NCBI GenBank assembly: GCA_017552535.1
Contig: JAFZPV010000012.1
Location: 1 to 37,799 of the forward strand
Reading direction: 5' to 3'
DNA from: Clostridia bacterium
Lineage (GTDB): Bacteria; Bacillota; Clostridia; Christensenellales; Aristaeellaceae
Length of the DNA stretch: 37,799 nucleotides
The position numbers and the translations under genes were made by a program. Position 1 is the first letter of the stretch. The number at the start of each line of letters is the position of its first letter. Positions 1,471-27,753 of this stretch are shown in pieces. Below the pieces are notes generated by a model. That model was not told the DNA's origin, searched no databases, and saw only the letters and a list, made by a program, of their open reading frames with translations.

Positions 1471-4296
1471 ATGGACAAATTCATCTCCGCCCGGGGCGTG
1501 CGCGTGCACAACCTCAAAAACATAGACGTGCAGATTCCCCGGGACAAGTTCACCGTCATCACAGGCCTGAGCGGCAGCGGCAAAAGCTCCCTGGCCTTCG
1601 ATACCATTTTCGCCGAGGGCCAGAGGCGCTACGTGGAGTCCCTGTCCTCCTACGCCCGCCAGTTCCTGGGGCAGATGGACAAGCCGGACGTGGACAGCAT
1701 CGACGGCCTCTCCCCTGCCATATCCATCGACCAGAAGACCACCGCGCGCTCGCCCCGGTCCACCGTGGGCACCGTGACCGAGATCCACGATTATCTGCGC
1801 CTGCTCTACGCCCGCGCGGGAACGCCCCACTGCCCCTCCTGCGGGCGGGTGATCGACCGGGTGAGCGTGGACGAGATCACCGGCCGCATCATGGGCCTGC
1901 CCGAAGGCACGCGCATCCTCGTCCTGGCCCCGCTGGTGCGCGGGCGCAAGGGCGAATACACCAAGCTTCTGGAGGACATGGCCCGCCGGGGCTACGTGCG
2001 CTGCCGCATCGACGGCATCATGTACGAGCTGAGCGAGCTGCCGCCCCTGGATAAAAATAAAAAACACGACATCGAGATCGTGATCGACCGCCTGATCGTG
2101 CGGCCCGACGCCCTTTCCCGCCTGACCGACAGTGTGGAGACCGCGCTGCGCCTGGGCGACAACCTGGTGATCGTCTCGGTGGTGGACGGGGAGGACATGC
2201 TGTTTTCCCAGCTGTACGCCTGCCCCGTGTGCGGCATATCCGTTGAGGAGCTCACGCCCCGCATGTTCTCCTTCAACAATCCCTACGGCGCCTGCCCCTG
2301 TTGTTCGGGCCTGGGCTTCATGACCACGGTGGACCCCTCCGCCGTGATCCCCGACGACAGCAAGACCCTGAACGAGGGCGCCATCCGCGTTTCCGGCTGG
2401 GACAGCGCCGAAAGCGGCGGCGCCATGGCGCGCATGTACCTGGAAGCCCTGAGCCGCCACTACGGCTTTTCGCTGGACGAGCCCGTAAAGAACCTTTCCA
2501 AAGCCCACATCGACCTGATCCTGTACGGCACCAAGGGCGAAAAAATCAGATGCGAATACGAGCGCGACGGCCGCAGGGGCAGCTTCTCTTCCCCCTTCGA
2601 GGGCATCGTGACCAATCTCGAGCGCCGCTACCGGGAGACGTCCTCCGACCTGAGCAAGGAATCCCTGGAGGAGTACATGGCCATGACGCCCTGCCCCGAA
2701 TGCAAGGGCCAGCGCTTAAAGCCCGCGGCCCTGGCGGTAACGGTGGGCGAAAAGAACATCGCCGCAGTGAGCGACCTTTCCATACGCGACGCACTGGCGT
2801 TTTTTGAGTCTCTGCGCCTGGCGCCCCGGCAGGAGATGATCGCCCGGCAGATCCTTCGGGAAGTGACCGCCCGGCTTACCTTCCTTCGGGACGTGGGCCT
2901 GGAATACCTCACCCTTTCCCGCGGCGCCGCCACCCTGTCCGGCGGCGAAGCCCAGCGCATCCGCCTGGCCACGCAGATCGGCAGCGGACTGGTGGGCGTG
3001 GTGTACATCCTGGACGAGCCCTCCATCGGCCTGCACATGCGCGACAGCGCAAAGCTGCTGGGCACCCTCAGGCGCCTTCAGCAGCTGGGCAACACGCTGA
3101 TCGTGGTGGAGCACGACACCCAGACCATGCTGGCGGCGGACTGGCTGATCGACATCGGCCCCGGCGCCGGCGCGGGCGGCGGGTACCTGGTGGCCTCCGG
3201 CACCCCGCAGGATGTGATGGCGAACCCCGCTTCCGTCACCGGCCAGTATTTAAGCGGCGAAAGGAGCGTTCCGGTCCCCGCCGAAAGGCGCGCGCCATCC
3301 GGCTTCATCACCGTGAAAAACGCCCGCGCCCACAACCTGAAGGGCATAGACGTGAGCTTCCCCCTGGGCGTGTTCACCTGCGTTACAGGCTTGAGCGGCA
3401 GCGGAAAGAGCTCGCTGGTGAACGATATCCTGTACAAGGCCCTCTCCCGGGCGCTCAACCGCTCCCGCGAAAAGCCCGGCCCCCACGACGGCATCGACGG
3501 CCTGGAGCAGCTGGACAAGGTGATCCAGATCGACCAGTCCCCCATCGGGCGCTCCCCCCGCTCCAATCCCGCCACCTACACGGGCCTGTTCGACCTGATC
3601 CGCGAGGTGTTCGCCTCCACGGCGGACGCCAAGGCCCACGGCTACAAAGCCAACCGTTTCTCCTTCAACGTGAAGGGCGGGCGCTGCGAGGCCTGCTCCG
3701 GCGACGGCATCATCAAGATCGAGATGCACTTTCTGCCGGACGTGTACGTGCCCTGCGAGGTCTGCCAGGGCAGGCGCTACAACCGGGAGACACTGGAGGT
3801 GCGCTACAAGGGCAAAAACATCTACGAGGTGCTGGATATGACCTGCGACGAGGCCCTGGAATTTTTCAGCGCCCTGCCCCGCATCAGCAGCAAGCTGCAG
3901 ACCATGGTGGACGTGGGCCTGGGGTACGTGAAGCTCGGCCAGCCCTCCACACAGCTTTCGGGCGGCGAAGCCCAGCGGGTGAAGCTGGCCACGGAGCTGA
4001 GCCGGAAGGCCACAGGCCGCACCCTGTACGTGCTGGACGAACCCACCACCGGCCTGCACCCCGCGGACGTGGAAAAGCTCAACGAGGTGCTTTCACGCCT
4101 GGTGGATGCAGGCAACACGCTGGTGGTGATCGAGCACAATCCCGACGTGATCAAGACCGCCGATTACCTGATCGACATGGGCCTCGAGGGCGGCGACCTG
4201 GGCGGTCACGTGGTGGCCCGGGGCACCCCGGAACAGGTGGCCCTGTGCCCGGAAAGCTACACCGGCCAGTGCATGCGGCCCATCCTGGGCATTTGA
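1471..4296 (+). CDS. uvrA: UvrABC excinuclease subunit A
   Basis: Full-length UvrA (941 residues), the DNA-damage sensor ATPase of nucleotide excision repair that loads UvrB. It holds two ABC ATPase modules. The first Walker A (GLSGSGKSS) is at residues 32-40 and the second GLSGSGKSS is in the C-terminal half, followed by the typical [19 protein letters not shown] stretch. Each half has an ABC signature ([26 protein letters not shown]) and Walker B ([23 protein letters not shown]). Zinc-binding cysteines are visible as CPSC, CPVC...CPCC and CEAC...CEVC. The start ATG at 1471 has AGAAAGG at 1456-1462 with 8-base spacing. The promoter is not clear: the upstream DNA is the CT-tract repeat, so expression may depend on readthrough from uvrB. 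I saw no terminator after the stop. Confidence 0.98.
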
Positions 4297-18953: not shown

Positions 18954-18970
18954 TACTTGGCCCTACCCAG

Positions 18971-18999
18971 TTGACATCTGTCACCCGCCGCGGTATAGT
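18971..18999 (+). promoter_or_regulatory. Sigma-A promoter of the BlaI-M56 operon, with an operator over the -35 box
   Basis: TTGACA (18971-18976) and TATAGT (18994-18999) with a 17-base spacer. The palindrome TGACATCTGTCA (18972-18983) covers the -35 box and shares the ATCTGT half with the larger downstream operator. Confidence 0.85.
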
Positions 19000-19000
19000 G

Positions 19001-19028
19001 TATACAGATGACGCGCGTCATCTGTATA
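19001..19028. promoter_or_regulatory. Perfect 28-base palindromic operator over the transcription start
   Basis: TATACAGATGACGC followed by its exact reverse complement, starting 2 bases after the -10 box. The TACA/TGTA ends fit a BlaI/MecI dimer. It ends before the ribosome binding site at 19028-19034. Binding here would block initiation, so the operon is probably self-repressed. Confidence 0.8.
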
Positions 19029-19039
19029 GGAGGTACAGA

Positions 19040-19417
19040 ATGAAGAATCTCGCCGAGAAGATCTCCGCTTCGGAGCTCGAGGTCATGCAGGTGCTGTGGG
19101 AGGCCGGGGACGCCCAGCCGCTTTCGGAGATACGCAAGACCCTGCAGACACGCTTTGACTGGAGCGACCCAACCGTGAAGACGCTGATACGGCGGCTTTG
19201 CGAAAAAGGCGCCATCCGGCAGGAAAAGCGGGACGTATTCTATTACAGCCCCTGCCTGAGCAGGGACGATTACAACGCCTGGGCGGCAGGCGATATGGTG
19301 AACCGCCTGTTCAAGGGCAGCGCGCAGGACCTGGTAGCCGCGCTGGTCAAGGGCAGGGAGCTGAGCCGCAAGGACATAGACGAGCTCAGGGACATGTTCC
19401 GGATGGAGGGCGAATGA
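19040..19417 (+). CDS. BlaI/MecI-family transcriptional repressor
   Basis: A 125-residue winged-helix repressor. The N-terminal half is typical: SASELEVMQVLWEAGDAQPLSEI, then the recognition region DWSDPTVKTLIRRLCEKGAI and the wing QEKRDVFYYSP. The C-terminal helices (LVAALVKGRELSRKDIDELRDMF) match the dimerisation part. In BlaI the partner protease cuts an Asn-Phe bond in this region; no Asn-Phe pair is visible here, so release may work differently. The start is fixed by GGAGG at 19029-19033. It overlaps almost nothing with the next gene: the M56 start is one base after its stop. The promoter in front holds three candidate operators. Confidence 0.93.
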   Translation: MKNLAEKISASELEVMQVLWEAGDAQPLSEIRKTLQTRFDWSDPTVKTLIRRLCEKGAIRQEKRDVFYYSPCLSRDDYNAWAAGDMVNRLFKGSAQDLVAALVKGRELSRKDIDELRDMFRMEGE

Positions 19418-19418
19418 T

Positions 19419-22250
19419 ATGGAAAACTTCCTTTTGATCCTGCTGTCGCTCTCCGTGTGCGGAAGCGCACTGGGGCTGATCGTGCTGGCCCTGTCCAAAG
19501 TAGGCAAAAAGCATCTGTCCAGTGGCTTCATCTACCTGTGCTGGGCGCTGGTGATCCTGCGTTTCATGCTGCCCGTGAGCGGGCTGATCGGCGTGAGTTT
19601 TGCGAAGACCGTGCCGGAAAGCATCCTCTACACGGTGCGCAGCGACGGTCAGGGCGGGCTGTACGTGTCTCCCCTGGTGCGCACCGAAGGCATGCTCACC
19701 CGCGAAAGTGCCCGCAAAAGCACCAAGTTCACCGAGACCATACGCGAAAGCAATGTATCGGCATCGGAAAGCGGCCCGGCGGCAAACCCCGCCGATGTCC
19801 CTGCCGTGCCCCTGTACAAAAACGCCTCCCTTTGGTTTTACCTGTGGCTGGGCGGGGCGCTCGTCAGCTTCCTGGGCACGCTGATCGGCTTCGGACGCTT
19901 CCGTCGCCTGCTGTTCAGGACCCTGAAGCCCGCCCGGCCGCTGGACAGCTCCGTGCTTTCCGCGCTGAACGCTTCGCCCTATCCCGCACTGTACCGCAGC
20001 GACAAGGTCAGTTCCACCGTGCTGCTGGGGCTGATCCGGCCCGTGATCGTGCTGCCGGACCGCGAGTATACTTCCGAGGACCTCGACCGCATCTTAAGGC
20101 ACGAGCTCACCCACTACCGCAGGGGCGACTTGGCCCTCAAATGGCTGCAGACCCTGGTGTATTCCCTCCACTGGTTCAATCCCCTCGTTCACCTGTTCCG
20201 CACGCAGACCACCCTGTACTGCGAGCTGAGCTGCGACCAGAAGCTGCTCGGGCGCATGGACAGGAACGATAAAAAGTCCTACGGCGAACTCTTGCTCAAT
20301 CTCGCCGCGGACAGAGCGCTTCCCCGCCGCGTGATCGCGGTGAGCTTCACCACCCAGAAGCGCGATCTGAAAGAAAGGCTGGTACAAATCATGACATTCA
20401 AAAAACTCGGAAAACAGGCGCTGGCGCTGAGCCTCGCGCTGATGATGATGATCACGGGCTGTGCGTTCGTGCTGGGTCCCGCCAGGGCCAGCTCCGACAC
20501 AGTCCAGAGCAATACCGCTCCCGCCGATCCCGAATACGAGACCATACACGTGAGCACCGCAGACGAATTCATAGACGCCATCGGCGATAACCGCCTGATC
20601 CTGCTGGCCCCCGGCACCTACGACCTGACCAAAACCCAGGGCTACGGCCGCGCGCAGGGCGACAGCTACTACTGGGAGGAAGCCGCCGACGGCTATACCC
20701 TGGTGCTGGACGTGGTGAAGAACCTGACCATCGCGGGCGAAGGCGGCGCCGATCAGGTGACCATCGTCACGCGTCCCCGCAGCGCCGATGTGCTGAAGCT
20801 GCTTGGCGCGGTCAACGTGACCCTGAAGGATCTTACCTGCGGCCACACGCAGATGCCCGACGCCTGCCAGGGTGCGGTGCTGAATCTGTACGGATGCCGC
20901 GACGTGTCCATCGACGGCTGCGTGCTGTACGGCTGCGGCACCATCGGCATCTGGGCCAACGAGTGCTGGAAGGTCCGCTGTGAGAACACCGTCATCAAGG
21001 AATGCTCCACCGGCGCGATCGAGATCGCAAACTGCTATGACATCATCTTCGACAGCTGCGAATTCCACGATTGCGAAGCCCACAACGGCTATCCGGGAAT
21101 GTGGATGGTCGAGACCTACAACACGACGCTGCTGGGCATCTACAACACCTCGGTATACAACAACCATATGCAGTATTTCGTCGAATCCTCCAACTCTTCC
21201 GGACTCGAGCTGGCTGGCTGCCGCATCTACGACAACCGCTTCGGAACCGGGTTCAATATCTACGGCGACAACATCGCGGTGAGCGGCTGCGAGTTTAAAA
21301 ACAACGGCCTCGGCGCATCCCGCTGGTTTGAAGGCGAACACGCAAACGTGTTCAGCCGGGACGGAGAGCCTCTGTACGTTCAGGATCTGGAAAGCATGCA
21401 GTGGGCCGAATTCCCCAGGTCTGAGCAGGTGCTGATCAGTCCGGAAAAGCCCGAAGGCAAAAAGCTCGCTGACGGCACTACCGAGTACCACGTGTCCACC
21501 GCGGACGAGCTGATCGCCTGCCTGGGCAGCGACACCGTGATCTATCTGGAAGGCGATACCTTCGACCTCTCCTCTGCCCTGGCGTACGGCGGCATGTACA
21601 GCGAAAACTGCTACTGGACGCAGAATTACGACGGCTACGGCCTGGTGCTGATCGGCGTGGACAATCTGAAGCTGATCGGCGCGGAAGGCAGACCCAACAT
21701 CGAGACCATGCCCCGCTCCGCGGATGTGCTGTCATTCCGCTACTGCAGCCGAGTCACCCTGGAAAACCTCGTGCTGGGCCATGTGACAGGCGCCGGCAGC
21801 TGCACGGGCGACGTGATCTCCTTCATGGGCTGCGAAGCGTGCACCATCTCCAACTGCGGCCTGTACGGCTGCGGCGTGAACGGCGTGAACGCTTTCGGCA
21901 GCGTGGATCTCCATGTGAACGACAGCGAGATCTACGAATGCAGCATGTACGCTGCCATCATAAGCGACTGCGCGGGCACCGAATTCAACAATGTGACCAT
22001 CCGCGACTGCGGCAGCAACACTATCGAGACCCAGCGCTGCCACGTGCGCTTCAGCGGCGCCACCTACTACAGCCCGGATTACACACCGAAGGACGAGACC
22101 TGGTACGGCTATTACGACGAATACGGCTACTACAACGAGATTGATGCGGACGACGGAAACGGCATCGCGGACTTCTTCTCCTCCCTCTTCGGCGAGGAAG
22201 CCCCCGTTACGGAACCGCCCGAGGAGGCGGAGGCGCCGGACGCCGTCTGA
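19419..22250 (+). CDS. M56 (BlaR1-like) membrane metalloprotease with a double parallel beta-helix extracellular domain
   Basis: A 943-residue protein. Residues 1-324 are a BlaR1/MecR1-type protease: membrane segments near 4-26, 37-60 and 139-162, the zinc motif HELTH at 228-232, and LYCELSCDQKLL after it. A fourth membrane segment follows (LALSLALMMMITGC, Cys348). The last residues before Cys348 fit a lipobox (ITGC), though in the middle of a protein. Instead of a penicillin-binding domain, the outside part consists of two related right-handed beta-helix units: about 374-660 and 689-890. Both open with the same motif (HVSTADEF / HVSTADEL) and then run through short repeats such as VSIDGCVLYGCG and CTISNCGLYGCG. 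An acidic tail ends the chain. Such folds often bind polysaccharide. It likely senses an envelope or sugar signal and inactivates the BlaI-type repressor encoded one base upstream. Confidence 0.88.
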   Translation: MENFLLILLSLSVCGSALGLIVLALSKVGKKHLSSGFIYLCWALVILRFMLPVSGLIGVSFAKTVPESILYTVRSDGQGGLYVSPLVRTEGMLTRESARKSTKFTETIRESNVSASESGPAANPADVPAVPLYKNASLWFYLWLGGALVSFLGTLIGFGRFRRLLFRTLKPARPLDSSVLSALNASPYPALYRSDKVSSTVLLGLIRPVIVLPDREYTSEDLDRILRHELTHYRRGDLALKWLQTLVYSLHWFNPLVHLFRTQTTLYCELSCDQKLLGRMDRNDKKSYGELLLNLAADRALPRRVIAVSFTTQKRDLKERLVQIMTFKKLGKQALALSLALMMMITGCAFVLGPARASSDTVQSNTAPADPEYETIHVSTADEFIDAIGDNRLILLAPGTYDLTKTQGYGRAQGDSYYWEEAADGYTLVLDVVKNLTIAGEGGADQVTIVTRPRSADVLKLLGAVNVTLKDLTCGHTQMPDACQGAVLNLYGCRDVSIDGCVLYGCGTIGIWANECWKVRCENTVIKECSTGAIEIANCYDIIFDSCEFHDCEAHNGYPGMWMVETYNTTLLGIYNTSVYNNHMQYFVESSNSSGLELAGCRIYDNRFGTGFNIYGDNIAVSGCEFKNNGLGASRWFEGEHANVFSRDGEPLYVQDLESMQWAEFPRSEQVLISPEKPEGKKLADGTTEYHVSTADELIACLGSDTVIYLEGDTFDLSSALAYGGMYSENCYWTQNYDGYGLVLIGVDNLKLIGAEGRPNIETMPRSADVLSFRYCSRVTLENLVLGHVTGAGSCTGDVISFMGCEACTISNCGLYGCGVNGVNAFGSVDLHVNDSEIYECSMYAAIISDCAGTEFNNVTIRDCGSNTIETQRCHVRFSGATYYSPDYTPKDETWYGYYDEYGYYNEIDADDGNGIADFFSSLFGEEAPVTEPPEEAEAPDAV

Positions 22251-25048: not shown

Positions 25049-26260
25049 TCAGTCCGCAGCGATCTCCGCCTGTACGTTGCTCAGGGTATGGGCGCAGCAG
25101 GCAAAGATCAGGATGTCGGGCTGTACCGCGTCCAGTATGGATTCCATGGATTCGGTGGTGCTTCGCGGGTCCACCGCGTACACGTCCCCGATAGCCAGGG
25201 ACAGAAACGCGCTCAAGGTGGAGCCGAAGCTGTCCTTGATCACCAGTACCTTCAGCGGCACGGCGCCGTCGTTGTGGGTGTGGGTCTGCGCCAGGTAGTG
25301 GCCGTAGATATAGTAGGCGTCCGAGGAATAGTCCTTGCCCTCGTCGCACTCCAGATTCTCGTATTTGATCACCGCGTCGCGGAAGCTGCCCTCCCGGGTG
25401 GCTTCGGGCGTGCCCCTTTCCTCGTAGAGGATATGGGTATCGTAGGCAGGATACAGCACGTACACATCGTCGTTATCCACGGAAGCGTCGCCGATGCGCC
25501 GGGCAAACTCGCCGTTGAGCCGTTTGGGATACAGGTCCAGGGTGAAGCGGCTCTCGTCAAGCGCCGTTTCGTCCAGGCCCAGGCCGAAGGCGTCGTTCAG
25601 CGTTTTCACGGTATCGCAGGCGGTGTTCAGCGCCAGCAGGTGCGTCCAGTGCATGTCGCTTTTGTTGACGGCCTTATCCATGGTGAGGCCGTGGCCAACA
25701 TAGGTGTCGCGGCTGTCCGTCACGGGCAGGCCCGCCTTCGCCAGGTCTTCCAGGATCAGCCTGGAATAATCGTCCAGATTGTCGTAGGCGTCCGTCTCGC
25801 CGGGCAGGAGGTCTTCCTCGTACAGGCCCGAATGGCAATACACCACCAAGCTCTTCGCGCCGTACTTTTCTTCCGCCATTTGGGCGAAAGCGATCACGTT
25901 GTTGGCGCTGGTGGGGTCGTAAGGCCCGTGCAGCACGTTGTAGTAGCCGCCGCTTTTCAGCTTCACCATGTCGAAGTCGGCGATGTTCACCAGGTGCTTT
26001 CCGGGCAGCATCTGCGCCCGGGCGGACAGATGCCTCAGGGTATCCCGGCCCCAGAGCCGCTTTTCGGCGTTGTAGTTGAGTTTGTACACGCGGGCAGACA
26101 TGCGGTCGAAAATATCGTTGTCCGTCTTGAGCTGGTCGGTATAGCTCTTAAAGAAGCCGTAGGCGTAGTTGCGCCCGTACTTTGCCAGCGTCAGGACCAT
26201 CACCAGGCAGATAAAGCCCACAAACAGGATCGCCAGCGCGCGGTTGACTTGCTTTCTCAT
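25049..26260 (-). CDS. DHHW/AlgX-like protein, partner of the MBOAT acyltransferase
   Basis: A 403-residue protein with an N-terminal membrane anchor (ALAILFVGFICLVMVLTLA) and a SGNH-hydrolase-like body. D202-M-H204-W-T corresponds to the DxHW(T) motif of AlgX/AlgJ/DHHW proteins, and IKDSFGS (Ser344) supplies the nucleophile block. Such proteins accept acyl groups from an MBOAT partner and transfer them to polysaccharide outside the membrane. The MBOAT gene lies directly upstream; its stop codon TAG is part of this gene's ribosome binding site (TAGGAGG), so the two are coupled. The glycan target is unknown. Confidence 0.82.
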   Translation of the reverse strand: MRKQVNRALAILFVGFICLVMVLTLAKYGRNYAYGFFKSYTDQLKTDNDIFDRMSARVYKLNYNAEKRLWGRDTLRHLSARAQMLPGKHLVNIADFDMVKLKSGGYYNVLHGPYDPTSANNVIAFAQMAEEKYGAKSLVVYCHSGLYEEDLLPGETDAYDNLDDYSRLILEDLAKAGLPVTDSRDTYVGHGLTMDKAVNKSDMHWTHLLALNTACDTVKTLNDAFGLGLDETALDESRFTLDLYPKRLNGEFARRIGDASVDNDDVYVLYPAYDTHILYEERGTPEATREGSFRDAVIKYENLECDEGKDYSSDAYYIYGHYLAQTHTHNDGAVPLKVLVIKDSFGSTLSAFLSLAIGDVYAVDPRSTTESMESILDAVQPDILIFACCAHTLSNVQAEIAAD

Positions 26261-26269
26261 GCGCGCCTC

Positions 26270-27679
26270 CTAAAAGTTGTAGTAGATGAACGGGTTGTAG
26301 CCGCCCGCCACCACGTTGGCCACTGCCAGCACCGTAGTGAGCGCAAGGGAAGCGCCGCTCAGAAGCTCCCAGGCCGCGTCCCCCAGGCGCAGGCGGTTTT
26401 TGATCGCCCTGCCCACGGGCAGGCCGCACAGCACGGCGGGCATCAGGTACCAGGCGTATTCCTTCAGCATGAACAGCGTGAGCCGGTCGAAAAACGGCGC
26501 GCCGTTCAGCCCGAACATGGTCTTGTAAAACGCGAGGGCGGAGGAAATGTCGCTGGAGCGGATCAGCACCGTGATCACCACCACGGCCGCCATCGCGTAC
26601 AAATGCCCCACGGCGTGCTTTTCCATCCATTTGCCAAGGCCCGTGAGCTTTTCCGCGATCAGCACCGCGAAGAACAGAAGCCCCCAGCACACGTACGTCC
26701 ATTCCGCGCCGTGCCACAGGCCCGTGAGCGCCCACACCACCAGCATGTTGAAGGCCAGGCGCCATTTGCTCTTCACGCGGCTTCCGCCCAGGGGAAAGAA
26801 CACATAGTCCCTGAACCAGGTGCACATGGAGATGTGCCACCTGCGCCAGAACTCCGTGACGGACTTCGAAACGAAGGGCATATCGAAGTTCTCCAGAAAA
26901 TGGAAGCCGAACATGCGCCCAAGGCCGATGGCCATATCGGAATAGCCTGAAAAGTCGTAGTATACCTGCATCAGGTACGCGCTGGCGGCGATCCAGCTGA
27001 GGGTCACGCTGATCTCGCCCTCCGGCAGCACGTACACCGCGTCCACCAGCCGGGCCAGGGTGTTGGCGAGGATCGCTTTCTTGGAAAAGCCCAGCATGAA
27101 GCGCCGTATGCCCTCGCAGAAATCGTCCGCGGTCTCCGTGCGGCCCGTGATCTCCTCCGCCACGGTCTCATACCGCACAATGGGGCCGGCGATGAGCTGC
27201 GGGAAGAACGATATGTACAGGCACACGTTCATCAGGTGCTTCTGGGCCCTGCCCCTGCCCCGGTACACGTCGATCACGTAGCTCATGGCCTGGAAGGTGA
27301 AAAACGATATGCCGATGGGCAGCGCGATCTTCGGGTCCGCGATGTGCGCCCCGAAAAGGGCGTTCACGTTCCGGACGGCGAAATTCGCGTATTTGAACAC
27401 CGCCAGCACGCACACGTTGAGCGCGACGCCCAGGACGAGCAGCGCCTTTTTGCGCCCAGGCCGGGAGGCGCTTTTGTCGATGCCGAGGGCCAGAAGCCAG
27501 TTCATCACGATGCTCCCCATCATCACCAGCACGAACTTCGGTTCGCCCCAGGCATAGAACAGCAGGCTCATCACCGTGAGAACGGCGTTGGCCAGCACGC
27601 GGCTTTTGCGCACGATGAAATACAGCGCCAGCGTAAGGGTCAGAAAGAAAAACAGAAATGCGTTTGAAGTGAATACCAT
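26270..27679 (-). CDS. MBOAT family O-acyltransferase (AlgI/DltB-like)
   Basis: A 469-residue multi-spanning membrane protein. The AlgI-type signature is clear: FVSKSVTEFWRRWHISMCTWFRDYVFFPLGGSR, followed by the catalytic histidine His323 in ALTGLWHGAEWTYV. The N-terminus (VFTSNAFLFFFLTLTLALYFIV) and GISFFTFQAMSYVIDVYRG are also typical. It moves an acyl group, usually acetyl, across the membrane for transfer to a surface polysaccharide. The ATG at 27679 (GGCAGGGA upstream) is preferred over a GTG 18 bases earlier that lacks a binding site. No dlt genes surround it, so polysaccharide O-acetylation is more likely than teichoic acid D-alanylation. Confidence 0.92.
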   Translation of the reverse strand: MVFTSNAFLFFFLTLTLALYFIVRKSRVLANAVLTVMSLLFYAWGEPKFVLVMMGSIVMNWLLALGIDKSASRPGRKKALLVLGVALNVCVLAVFKYANFAVRNVNALFGAHIADPKIALPIGISFFTFQAMSYVIDVYRGRGRAQKHLMNVCLYISFFPQLIAGPIVRYETVAEEITGRTETADDFCEGIRRFMLGFSKKAILANTLARLVDAVYVLPEGEISVTLSWIAASAYLMQVYYDFSGYSDMAIGLGRMFGFHFLENFDMPFVSKSVTEFWRRWHISMCTWFRDYVFFPLGGSRVKSKWRLAFNMLVVWALTGLWHGAEWTYVCWGLLFFAVLIAEKLTGLGKWMEKHAVGHLYAMAAVVVITVLIRSSDISSALAFYKTMFGLNGAPFFDRLTLFMLKEYAWYLMPAVLCGLPVGRAIKNRLRLGDAAWELLSGASLALTTVLAVANVVAGGYNPFIYYNF

Positions 27680-27753
27680 GTCGGAAATCCCTGCCACGTA
27701 AGGCCGGGCCGCTCCTCAGCGCGAAGAACGGCTTTTCGCCCGTTTTTTACGGC

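Follow-up and report, generated by a model that had tools for sequence, protein, structure and literature searches.

A BlaI/BlaR1-type system of Clostridia with a predicted tandem beta-helix as the outside part of its receptor

Introduction

BlaR1-type switches have been studied almost only as antibiotic sensors. The receptors BlaR1/MecR1 of Staphylococcus aureus and Bacillus licheniformis, which work with the repressors BlaI/MecI, consist of an M56 protease with HExxH and ExxxD motifs, four membrane helices, an autocleavage Phe and an outer penicillin-binding domain, and they are encoded beside their repressor under the control of two operators. According to the parts of one report used here, S. 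aureus BlaR1 is cut after Gly331 by the signal peptidase I SpsB, which sheds the sensor, and staphylococcal BlaI is cleaved at Asn101-Phe102 (PMC9834060). Portions of a second report describe C. thermocellum BlaI proteins that control between one and three operons and bind four-protomer sites (PMC8457756).

Here we analyse a locus of the same general kind on contig JAFZPV010000012.1 of a Clostridia bacterium (assembly GCA_017552535.1); the window is the whole stretch of 37,799 nucleotides. The locus encodes a BlaI-type repressor and an M56 protease fused to a predicted tandem beta-helix, and its receptor is a new version of the BlaI/BlaR1-type system. New here are a lipobox-type Cys at the end of membrane helix 4, an operator that at high stringency is nearly confined to the operon's own promoter, an Arg/His/Cys3 set and the occurrence of the beta-helix on predicted anti-sigma factors of the extracytoplasmic function (ECF) type. 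On balance we favour the reading that the locus is an autoregulated proteolytic switch on the BlaI/BlaR1 pattern, self-contained and equipped with a new sensor and a lipoprotein step. Searches of the open-access PMC literature listed nothing on BlaR1/M56 fusions with a beta-helix, a lipobox or a lipoprotein signal peptide, which is weak evidence of novelty.

Results

A BlaI-type repressor and an M56 receptor one base apart

The operon and the parts of the receptor are as follows.

19040-19417, + strand: blaI-type repressor, 125 amino acids (PF03965, 6.8e-30; MecI/BlaI structures, 9e-17 to 2e-16)
19419-22250, + strand: M56 protease-tandem beta-helix receptor, 943 amino acids (open reading frame, Pfam, AlphaFold2, Foldseek)
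19419-20394, + strand: M56 part, residues 1-325, with HELTH 228-232, E269/D273, Y288, autocleavage-like S309-F310 and R320 (conservation, BlaR1 alignment)
20412-20471, + strand: membrane helix 4, residues 332-351, with lipobox-type ITGC, Cys348 at 20460-20462 (model; Cys conservation)
20538-21299, + strand: beta-helix unit 1, about residues 374-627, with R454, H476, C483, C506 and C529 (models; conservation)
21480-22067, + strand: beta-helix unit 2, about residues 688-883, with R766, H788, C795, C818 and C841 (model; conservation)

The repressor frame, which was checked, runs from an ATG at 19040 to a stop at 19415-19417, and the receptor frame from an ATG at 19419 to a last codon at 22245-22247 with the stop extending to 22250, leaving an intergenic gap of exactly one base (19418). 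Frames and Pfam matches thus agree with the arrangement that a sequence-only reading had proposed. The repressor passes Penicillinase_R (PF03965) with 104.2 bits against a cut-off of 22.6 (6.8e-30). The position aligned with Phe102 of BlaI, the P1' residue of the cleavage site, is Leu in 48 of 49 rows, unlike in staphylococci, so the cut in this repressor may differ from the staphylococcal one. A CopY-type copper switch was ruled out as an identity of the repressor, as TIGR02698 of NCBIfam gives 80.4 bits against a cut-off of 121.95.

Residues 7-323 of the receptor match Peptidase_M56 (PF05569) with 161.6 bits (cut-off 31, 3.2e-47). In an alignment of 50 rows (A3), comprising the window protein and 49 fusions after removal of the near-copy L143, the gluzincin residues H228, E229, H232, D237, E269, D273, Y288 and R320 are present in every row and F310 in 48. 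The catalytic residues, and with them the autocleavage Ser-Phe, align with the BlaR1 residues named in the consulted sections of PMC9834060; F310, which is aligned with BlaR1 F284, is the predicted autocleavage Phe in P1'. A Foldseek search of the PDB with the protease part matched S. aureus BlaR1 (8exs), and the profile blaR1_generic gave 92.5 bits against a cut-off of 400 and covered residues 20-347 only. HELTH and four membrane segments had both been read from the sequence. The former is present at 228-232, and the latter can be assigned to the long helices 2-32, 35-50, 136-167 and 332-351 of the AlphaFold2 model. The outside loop that joins helices 2 and 3 varies among the genus orthologues except for an RTEG-LTRE peptide (residues 88-97 of P0001, about 19680-19709), which they keep and which is a possible counterpart of the BlaR1 EL1 loop.

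A homology search recovered M56-beta-helix fusions in the same frame in other genomes. Five of the six other genomes of the genus hold a near-whole protein of this type (61 to 75% identity), one of these ending at a contig edge, and the sixth holds an N-terminal piece. Named genomes were further scanned with a beta-helix alignment, keeping the best 80 of 213 relatives, metagenome-assembled genomes (MAGs) of Clostridia, many of them from ruminant guts judging by record titles. Among the 81 beta-helix open reading frames (ORFs) of these MAGs, 50 are M56 fusions; two beyond the 50 (L074 and L080), which open with the terminal part of an M56 domain, are fusions that have been cut or broken. BlaI lies at most 60 base pairs upstream in 47 of the 48 fusions of the scan set with enough upstream DNA, and about 250 base pairs away in L105. 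Elsewhere the beta-helix domain is rare at the cut-offs used, being found in 6 of 396 genomes of the order and 2 of 398 genomes of a phylum sample, each count including the own genome. An assembly error joining two unrelated genes, which the sequence-only reading had named among the findings that would refute it, found no supporting point and is ruled out to within a negligible residual probability, since the fusion recurs in five of the six other genomes of the genus and in 50 of the 81 ORFs of the scan.

The own genome (G000) carries two related loci. A second fusion of 876 amino acids on contig 55 (L004:4040-6667) has its own BlaI, in an ORF within 3336-4040, is devoid of the lipobox Cys and has a unit 2 without the His/Cys set. 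A third pair on contig 8 (L003:1113-2955) has an M56 protein of 492 amino acids without beta-helix, preceded by an ORF that is BlaI-like by eye alone. Many fusions (L124:6681-7175 and similar) carry an extra C-terminal domain with a recurrent FA..VQ..IA.GDWEALA motif; of 27 ORFs with more than 60 residues past the beta-helix five were tried, and none of these extra parts has a Pfam match.

A tandem beta-helix with a near-invariant Arg/His/Cys set

Two stretches of the outside part together match Beta_helix (PF13229) with 59.7 bits (cut-off 25.9, 3.4e-16), and the sequence HVSTADE occurs twice, at 377 and 691. AlphaFold2, given 50 aligned sequences, predicts two beta-strand solenoids spanning about 374-627 and 688-883, with block values of the predicted local distance difference test (pLDDT) mostly at 80-97. 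The whole chain has a mean pLDDT of 79.5 and a predicted template modelling score (pTM) of 0.58, and its pLDDT is low at 300-309 and the C terminus as well as in two connecting parts, the loop 56-129 and the linker 349-369; unit 1 modelled alone from 70 sequences reaches a pLDDT of 95.3 and a pTM of 0.93. Foldseek matches of the outside part in the PDB are right-handed beta-helix enzymes. As TMq is at most 0.63 in the 50 rows listed, the likeness to carbohydrate enzymes is at superfamily level only; a viral structure library returned general beta-helix matches only. With Pfam and NCBIfam, neither a lyase or hydrolase family over its cut-off nor a penicillin-binding domain was found in the receptor. 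Pfam, AlphaFold2 and Foldseek therefore agree on a tandem double beta-helix that opens with HVSTADE and is not a penicillin-binding domain, as had been claimed, and the structure prediction does yield a beta-helix. In the model, the tandem beta-helix occupies the slot of the BlaR1 penicillin-binding domain. Given this different outside part, the input of the switch is probably something other than an antibiotic.

Within the beta-helix, H476, C483, C506 and C529 of unit 1 and R766, H788, C795, C818 and C841 of unit 2 are found in all 82 aligned rows and R454 in 81, while other Cys columns vary; as the scan pattern contained GCG, C506 or C818 was partly preselected. Proteins found by another route gave 30 domains, of which 12 are left out because their proteins (L007-L011, L058), judging by sequence, are also in the scan set. 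Of the 18 remaining domains 14 have the GH-C-GCG-C motif; it is absent from a fragment of L056 and from the second unit of L004, L013 and L015. None of 6242 other ORFs of the loci has it. From the alignments, the near-invariant Arg/His/Cys3 set is this beta-helix family's own mark. By the strand list of the unit 1 model, R454, H476/C483, C506 and C529 would sit on four consecutive coils, all at the same corner.

Judging by the residues themselves, an edge of this composition is at least as suited to a metal or thiol site as to a glycan site. The receptor may accordingly be a metal or thiol/redox sensor, in which each unit would use its Arg-His-Cys-Cys-Cys edge to bind a metal ion or to react with an electrophile. 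We hold this idea only tentatively: the invariance of the His/Cys set in both units next to variable other Cys residues, and its modelled position at one corner of four coils, speak for it, but the set is missing from unit 2 in three paralogues (L004, L013, L015) and the repressor is not CopY (TIGR02698 80 bits, cut-off 122). The sequence-only reading had proposed a proteolytic switch that senses a glycan or wall fragment. Its proteolytic part stands, with intact catalytic residues and a BlaI partner. The glycan ligand is a candidate only, since the fold match is at superfamily level and the Arg/His/Cys3 set is present; glycan and metal, thiol or covalent ligands are equal candidates.

A lipobox-type cysteine closing membrane helix 4

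The end of helix 4 (KKLGKQALALSLALMMMITGC) resembles a lipobox Cys after an n-region and a hydrophobic core, placed internally rather than N-terminally. In A3, Cys occupies the Cys348 column in 48 of 50 rows; the residue before this column is G, A or S in 49, and the one after it is mostly G or A. A short hydrophobic core after Lys/Arg, ending in Cys with G/A/S before it, is kept in nearly every fusion. A loose lipobox motif is found here in 46 of 50 fusions and a strict one in 33, and the strict motif occurs elsewhere in the preceding approximately 320 residues in 6 of 50. Over all loci, with copies and cut ends removed, the loose motif is present in 47 of 53 M56 proteins with beta-helix versus 4 of 31 without (Fisher 3e-12, a value that ignores kinship); three of the latter four carry it inside the helix and not at its end. 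Ordinary lipoprotein signal peptides are found on many of the stand-alone beta-helices. In S. aureus BlaR1 the position of Cys348 is taken by Ser, and Gly331 of that protein aligns with Gly353, five residues on.

Helix 4 may therefore double as a lipoprotein signal peptide, and processing of the receptor to a lipoprotein is likely from these sequence features; that Lsp cuts at Cys348 in a real fraction of molecules we regard as reasonably probable. The lipoprotein form suggested earlier thus gains much support from the conservation of the ITGC-type Cys and from its rarity in M56 proteins without beta-helix. In a conventional receptor the beta-helix would instead stay attached, bind an acidic polysaccharide or wall fragment and signal like BlaR1, with Cys348 serving only the packing of helix 4. 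BlaR1 does signal as an intact protein, as stated in the sections of PMC9834060 used here, and the fold matches polysaccharide lyases, epimerases and glycosidases. Nevertheless, we consider this arrangement unlikely in view of a lipobox-type Cys that nearly every fusion keeps and other M56 proteins rarely have, and of the Pfam and NCBIfam searches, in which no lyase or hydrolase family exceeded its cut-off.

Two operators around the promoter

The predicted control region lies directly upstream of the repressor gene.

18969-18986, + strand: upstream BlaI operator O1 (AGTTGACATCTGTCACCC), over the -35 box (predicted from sequence)
18971-18999, + strand: promoter, TTGACA (18971-18976), 17-base-pair spacer, TATAGT (18994-18999) (predicted, read from sequence)
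19002-19027, + strand: operator O2, perfect palindrome ATACAGATGACGCGCGTCATCTGTAT, just 3' of the -10 box (predicted from sequence)

O1 has 3 mismatches to AGATGACNNNNGTCATCT, and the O2 palindrome has one match in the window versus none in 100 shuffles. The two dyads lie 37 base pairs apart around the promoter, and a site at the same distance from O2 is found in five genus genomes (G001, G002, G003, G005, G006). When up to 3 mismatches are allowed, five of the seven genus genomes have a single copy each of a 24-base-pair operator core; of the remaining two, the contig of G004 begins inside the gene and the operator of G006 has diverged. At up to 1 mismatch, 7 of 8 sites in the genus are at the operon. 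In other lineages the promoter of blaI-M56 carries a site like AGACTACACGTGTAATCT: among 20 other genomes, such a site is present at up to 1 mismatch in 13, and 14 of 16 sites of this quality, including 10 of 10 exact ones, precede blaI-M56, while a reversed control pattern is found at 7 places anywhere in these genomes. At high stringency the operon is, by these searches, the main target of the operator, and it seems rather probable that the regulon is essentially the operon itself.

Apart from blaI and the fusion itself, no conserved neighbour that might be a target gene recurs in many loci; the next-largest neighbour clusters are present in up to 10 of the fused loci, where their positions vary. 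No operator was seen beside a beta-lactamase or penicillin-binding protein (PBP) gene, nor was there a recurrent neighbour, the neighbours not having been annotated individually. Stand-alone beta-helix genes as BlaI targets found no support, as 4 of 31 upstream stretches match the site at up to 2 mismatches, where shuffles give a mean of 4.2.

Stand-alone forms and an ECF sigma chassis

Between 29 and 31 of the 81 scan ORFs are stand-alone secreted or lipoprotein beta-helices, and BlaI is present in the locus of only 1 of the 31 ORFs scored so. On a tree of 83 domains, with L074 and L080 relabelled, fused and stand-alone forms change 12 times, at least 9 of these changes being forced by starred branches. 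A secreted beta-helix protein without M56 in genus genome G001 (L054:6112-7809 in reverse-complement coordinates; L015) is kin of the contig 55 paralogue. In L064 and L065, which look like lipoprotein or secreted proteins, the family's beta-helix stands behind another N-terminal domain, and Beta_helix is the only Pfam/NCBIfam name.

In one related family of the order (f10), the beta-helix is the outside part of a one-helix protein without M56, encoded directly 3' of an ECF sigma gene. This adjacency holds in all three genomes with an upstream stretch (L213, identical with L062; L215; and L216); L214 is cut upstream. The sigma gene matches Sigma70_r2, Sigma70_r4 and TIGR02937 over their cut-offs. 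The one-helix protein matches no anti-sigma profile of Pfam or NCBIfam, and we infer from position and topology that it is a predicted anti-sigma factor. L221 and L222 combine an ECF sigma gene with a similar N-terminal membrane part without beta-helix; compared with the beta-helix forms, this is by sequence an apparent exchange of the outside domain on one chassis. An ECF-sigma-like ORF also follows directly after an M56/beta-helix gene in L138 (7106-7762).

The occurrence of one beta-helix on two chassis favours a portable sensor module and is the best evidence for a sensor role; we are fairly confident that the beta-helix is the sensor. The opposite assignment would make the beta-helix lipoprotein an inducible product, with M56/BlaI setting its amount and another stimulus acting on M56. 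An operon that appears to be nearly the sole operator target, common stand-alone secreted or lipoprotein forms and their repeated interchange with fused ones would suit such an effector. We judge it improbable, as the same domain on an ECF anti-sigma-like chassis argues for sensing and BlaI is nearly absent from the loci of stand-alone ORFs.

Discussion

In the favoured switch, BlaI dimers would occupy both operators in the resting cell. A ligand meeting the beta-helix outside would cause the M56 domain inside to cut BlaI and derepress the operon, the main induction product being the receptor itself with its surface beta-helix. Lgt and Lsp could lipidate the chain and cut it at Cys348, so that a four-helix protease and a beta-helix anchored by lipid would result. 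The sensor would thereby stay on the membrane, whereas that of BlaR1 is shed by signal peptidase I near the same place.

Several observations weigh against this scheme. The lipobox is missing in L099, L107, effectively L105, and the genus paralogues L002/L004 and L013, and L108 keeps the Cys with Met before Gly, which means that not every member would be processed. No lipobox is present in the available stretch of the predicted anti-sigma version. Genus proteins have, in addition, an AxA signal-peptidase-I-like site (GPARA/SS) further on, and cuts at Cys348 and at this site are both possible by sequence. As for the operator, 7 of the 20 other genomes have no site at up to 1 mismatch because their operators differ, and in the seven genus genomes a limit of 2 mismatches gives 66 sites, 11 at the operon and 55 elsewhere, versus 18 for the reversed control. 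Eight of the 55 weaker sites (L165, L169-L174, L176) were inspected and have no blaI or M56 nearby. The question raised earlier of where else the operator occurs is thus answered in two parts: close matches lie almost only at the own promoter, and weaker sites do exist elsewhere, so that further BlaI targets are possible.

The locus shares with BlaR1/MecR1 the catalytic motifs, membrane topology, autocleavage Phe, adjacent repressor, paired operators and a peptidase cut at the end of helix 4, which is predicted here and seen in BlaR1. It differs from them in that a tandem beta-helix replaces the penicillin-binding domain, a lipobox-type Cys is present rather than a signal peptidase I site alone, and operator searches and neighbours revealed no beta-lactamase or PBP target gene. 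Like other Clostridia BlaI/M56 systems, such as C. thermocellum BlaI_1845, it appears to have a small regulon including its own operon and paired dimer sites, whereas the operons there hold further genes, and the parts of that report considered mention no beta-helix (PMC8457756). The fold is that of the right-handed parallel beta-helix superfamily (PF13229; PL6, pectate lyases, mannuronan epimerases), but no known enzyme is close among the matches listed, and the Arg/His/Cys3 set is the present family's own. ECF sigma/membrane anti-sigma pairs share the beta-helix as outside part and differ in their chassis, which has neither M56 nor BlaI.

A widespread set in gut Clostridia with another outside module would show that the BlaI/M56 switch is a general platform whose input can be tested. 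The conserved lipobox suggests that processing at the end of the helix can retain a sensor on the membrane and not just shed it, as with BlaR1. A bolder, doubtful version is a split receptor made from one chain, which Lsp would separate into a protease and a lipid-anchored two-site beta-helix; each unit would bind a metal or a covalent ligand at its Arg-His-Cys-Cys-Cys site, and the sensor module would serve both BlaI/M56 and ECF sigma/anti-sigma systems in gut Clostridia.

Further along the window, at 25049-27697, an MBOAT O-acyltransferase gene (PF03062) adjoins an ORF without Pfam match; the two presumably resemble polysaccharide O-acetylation pairs.

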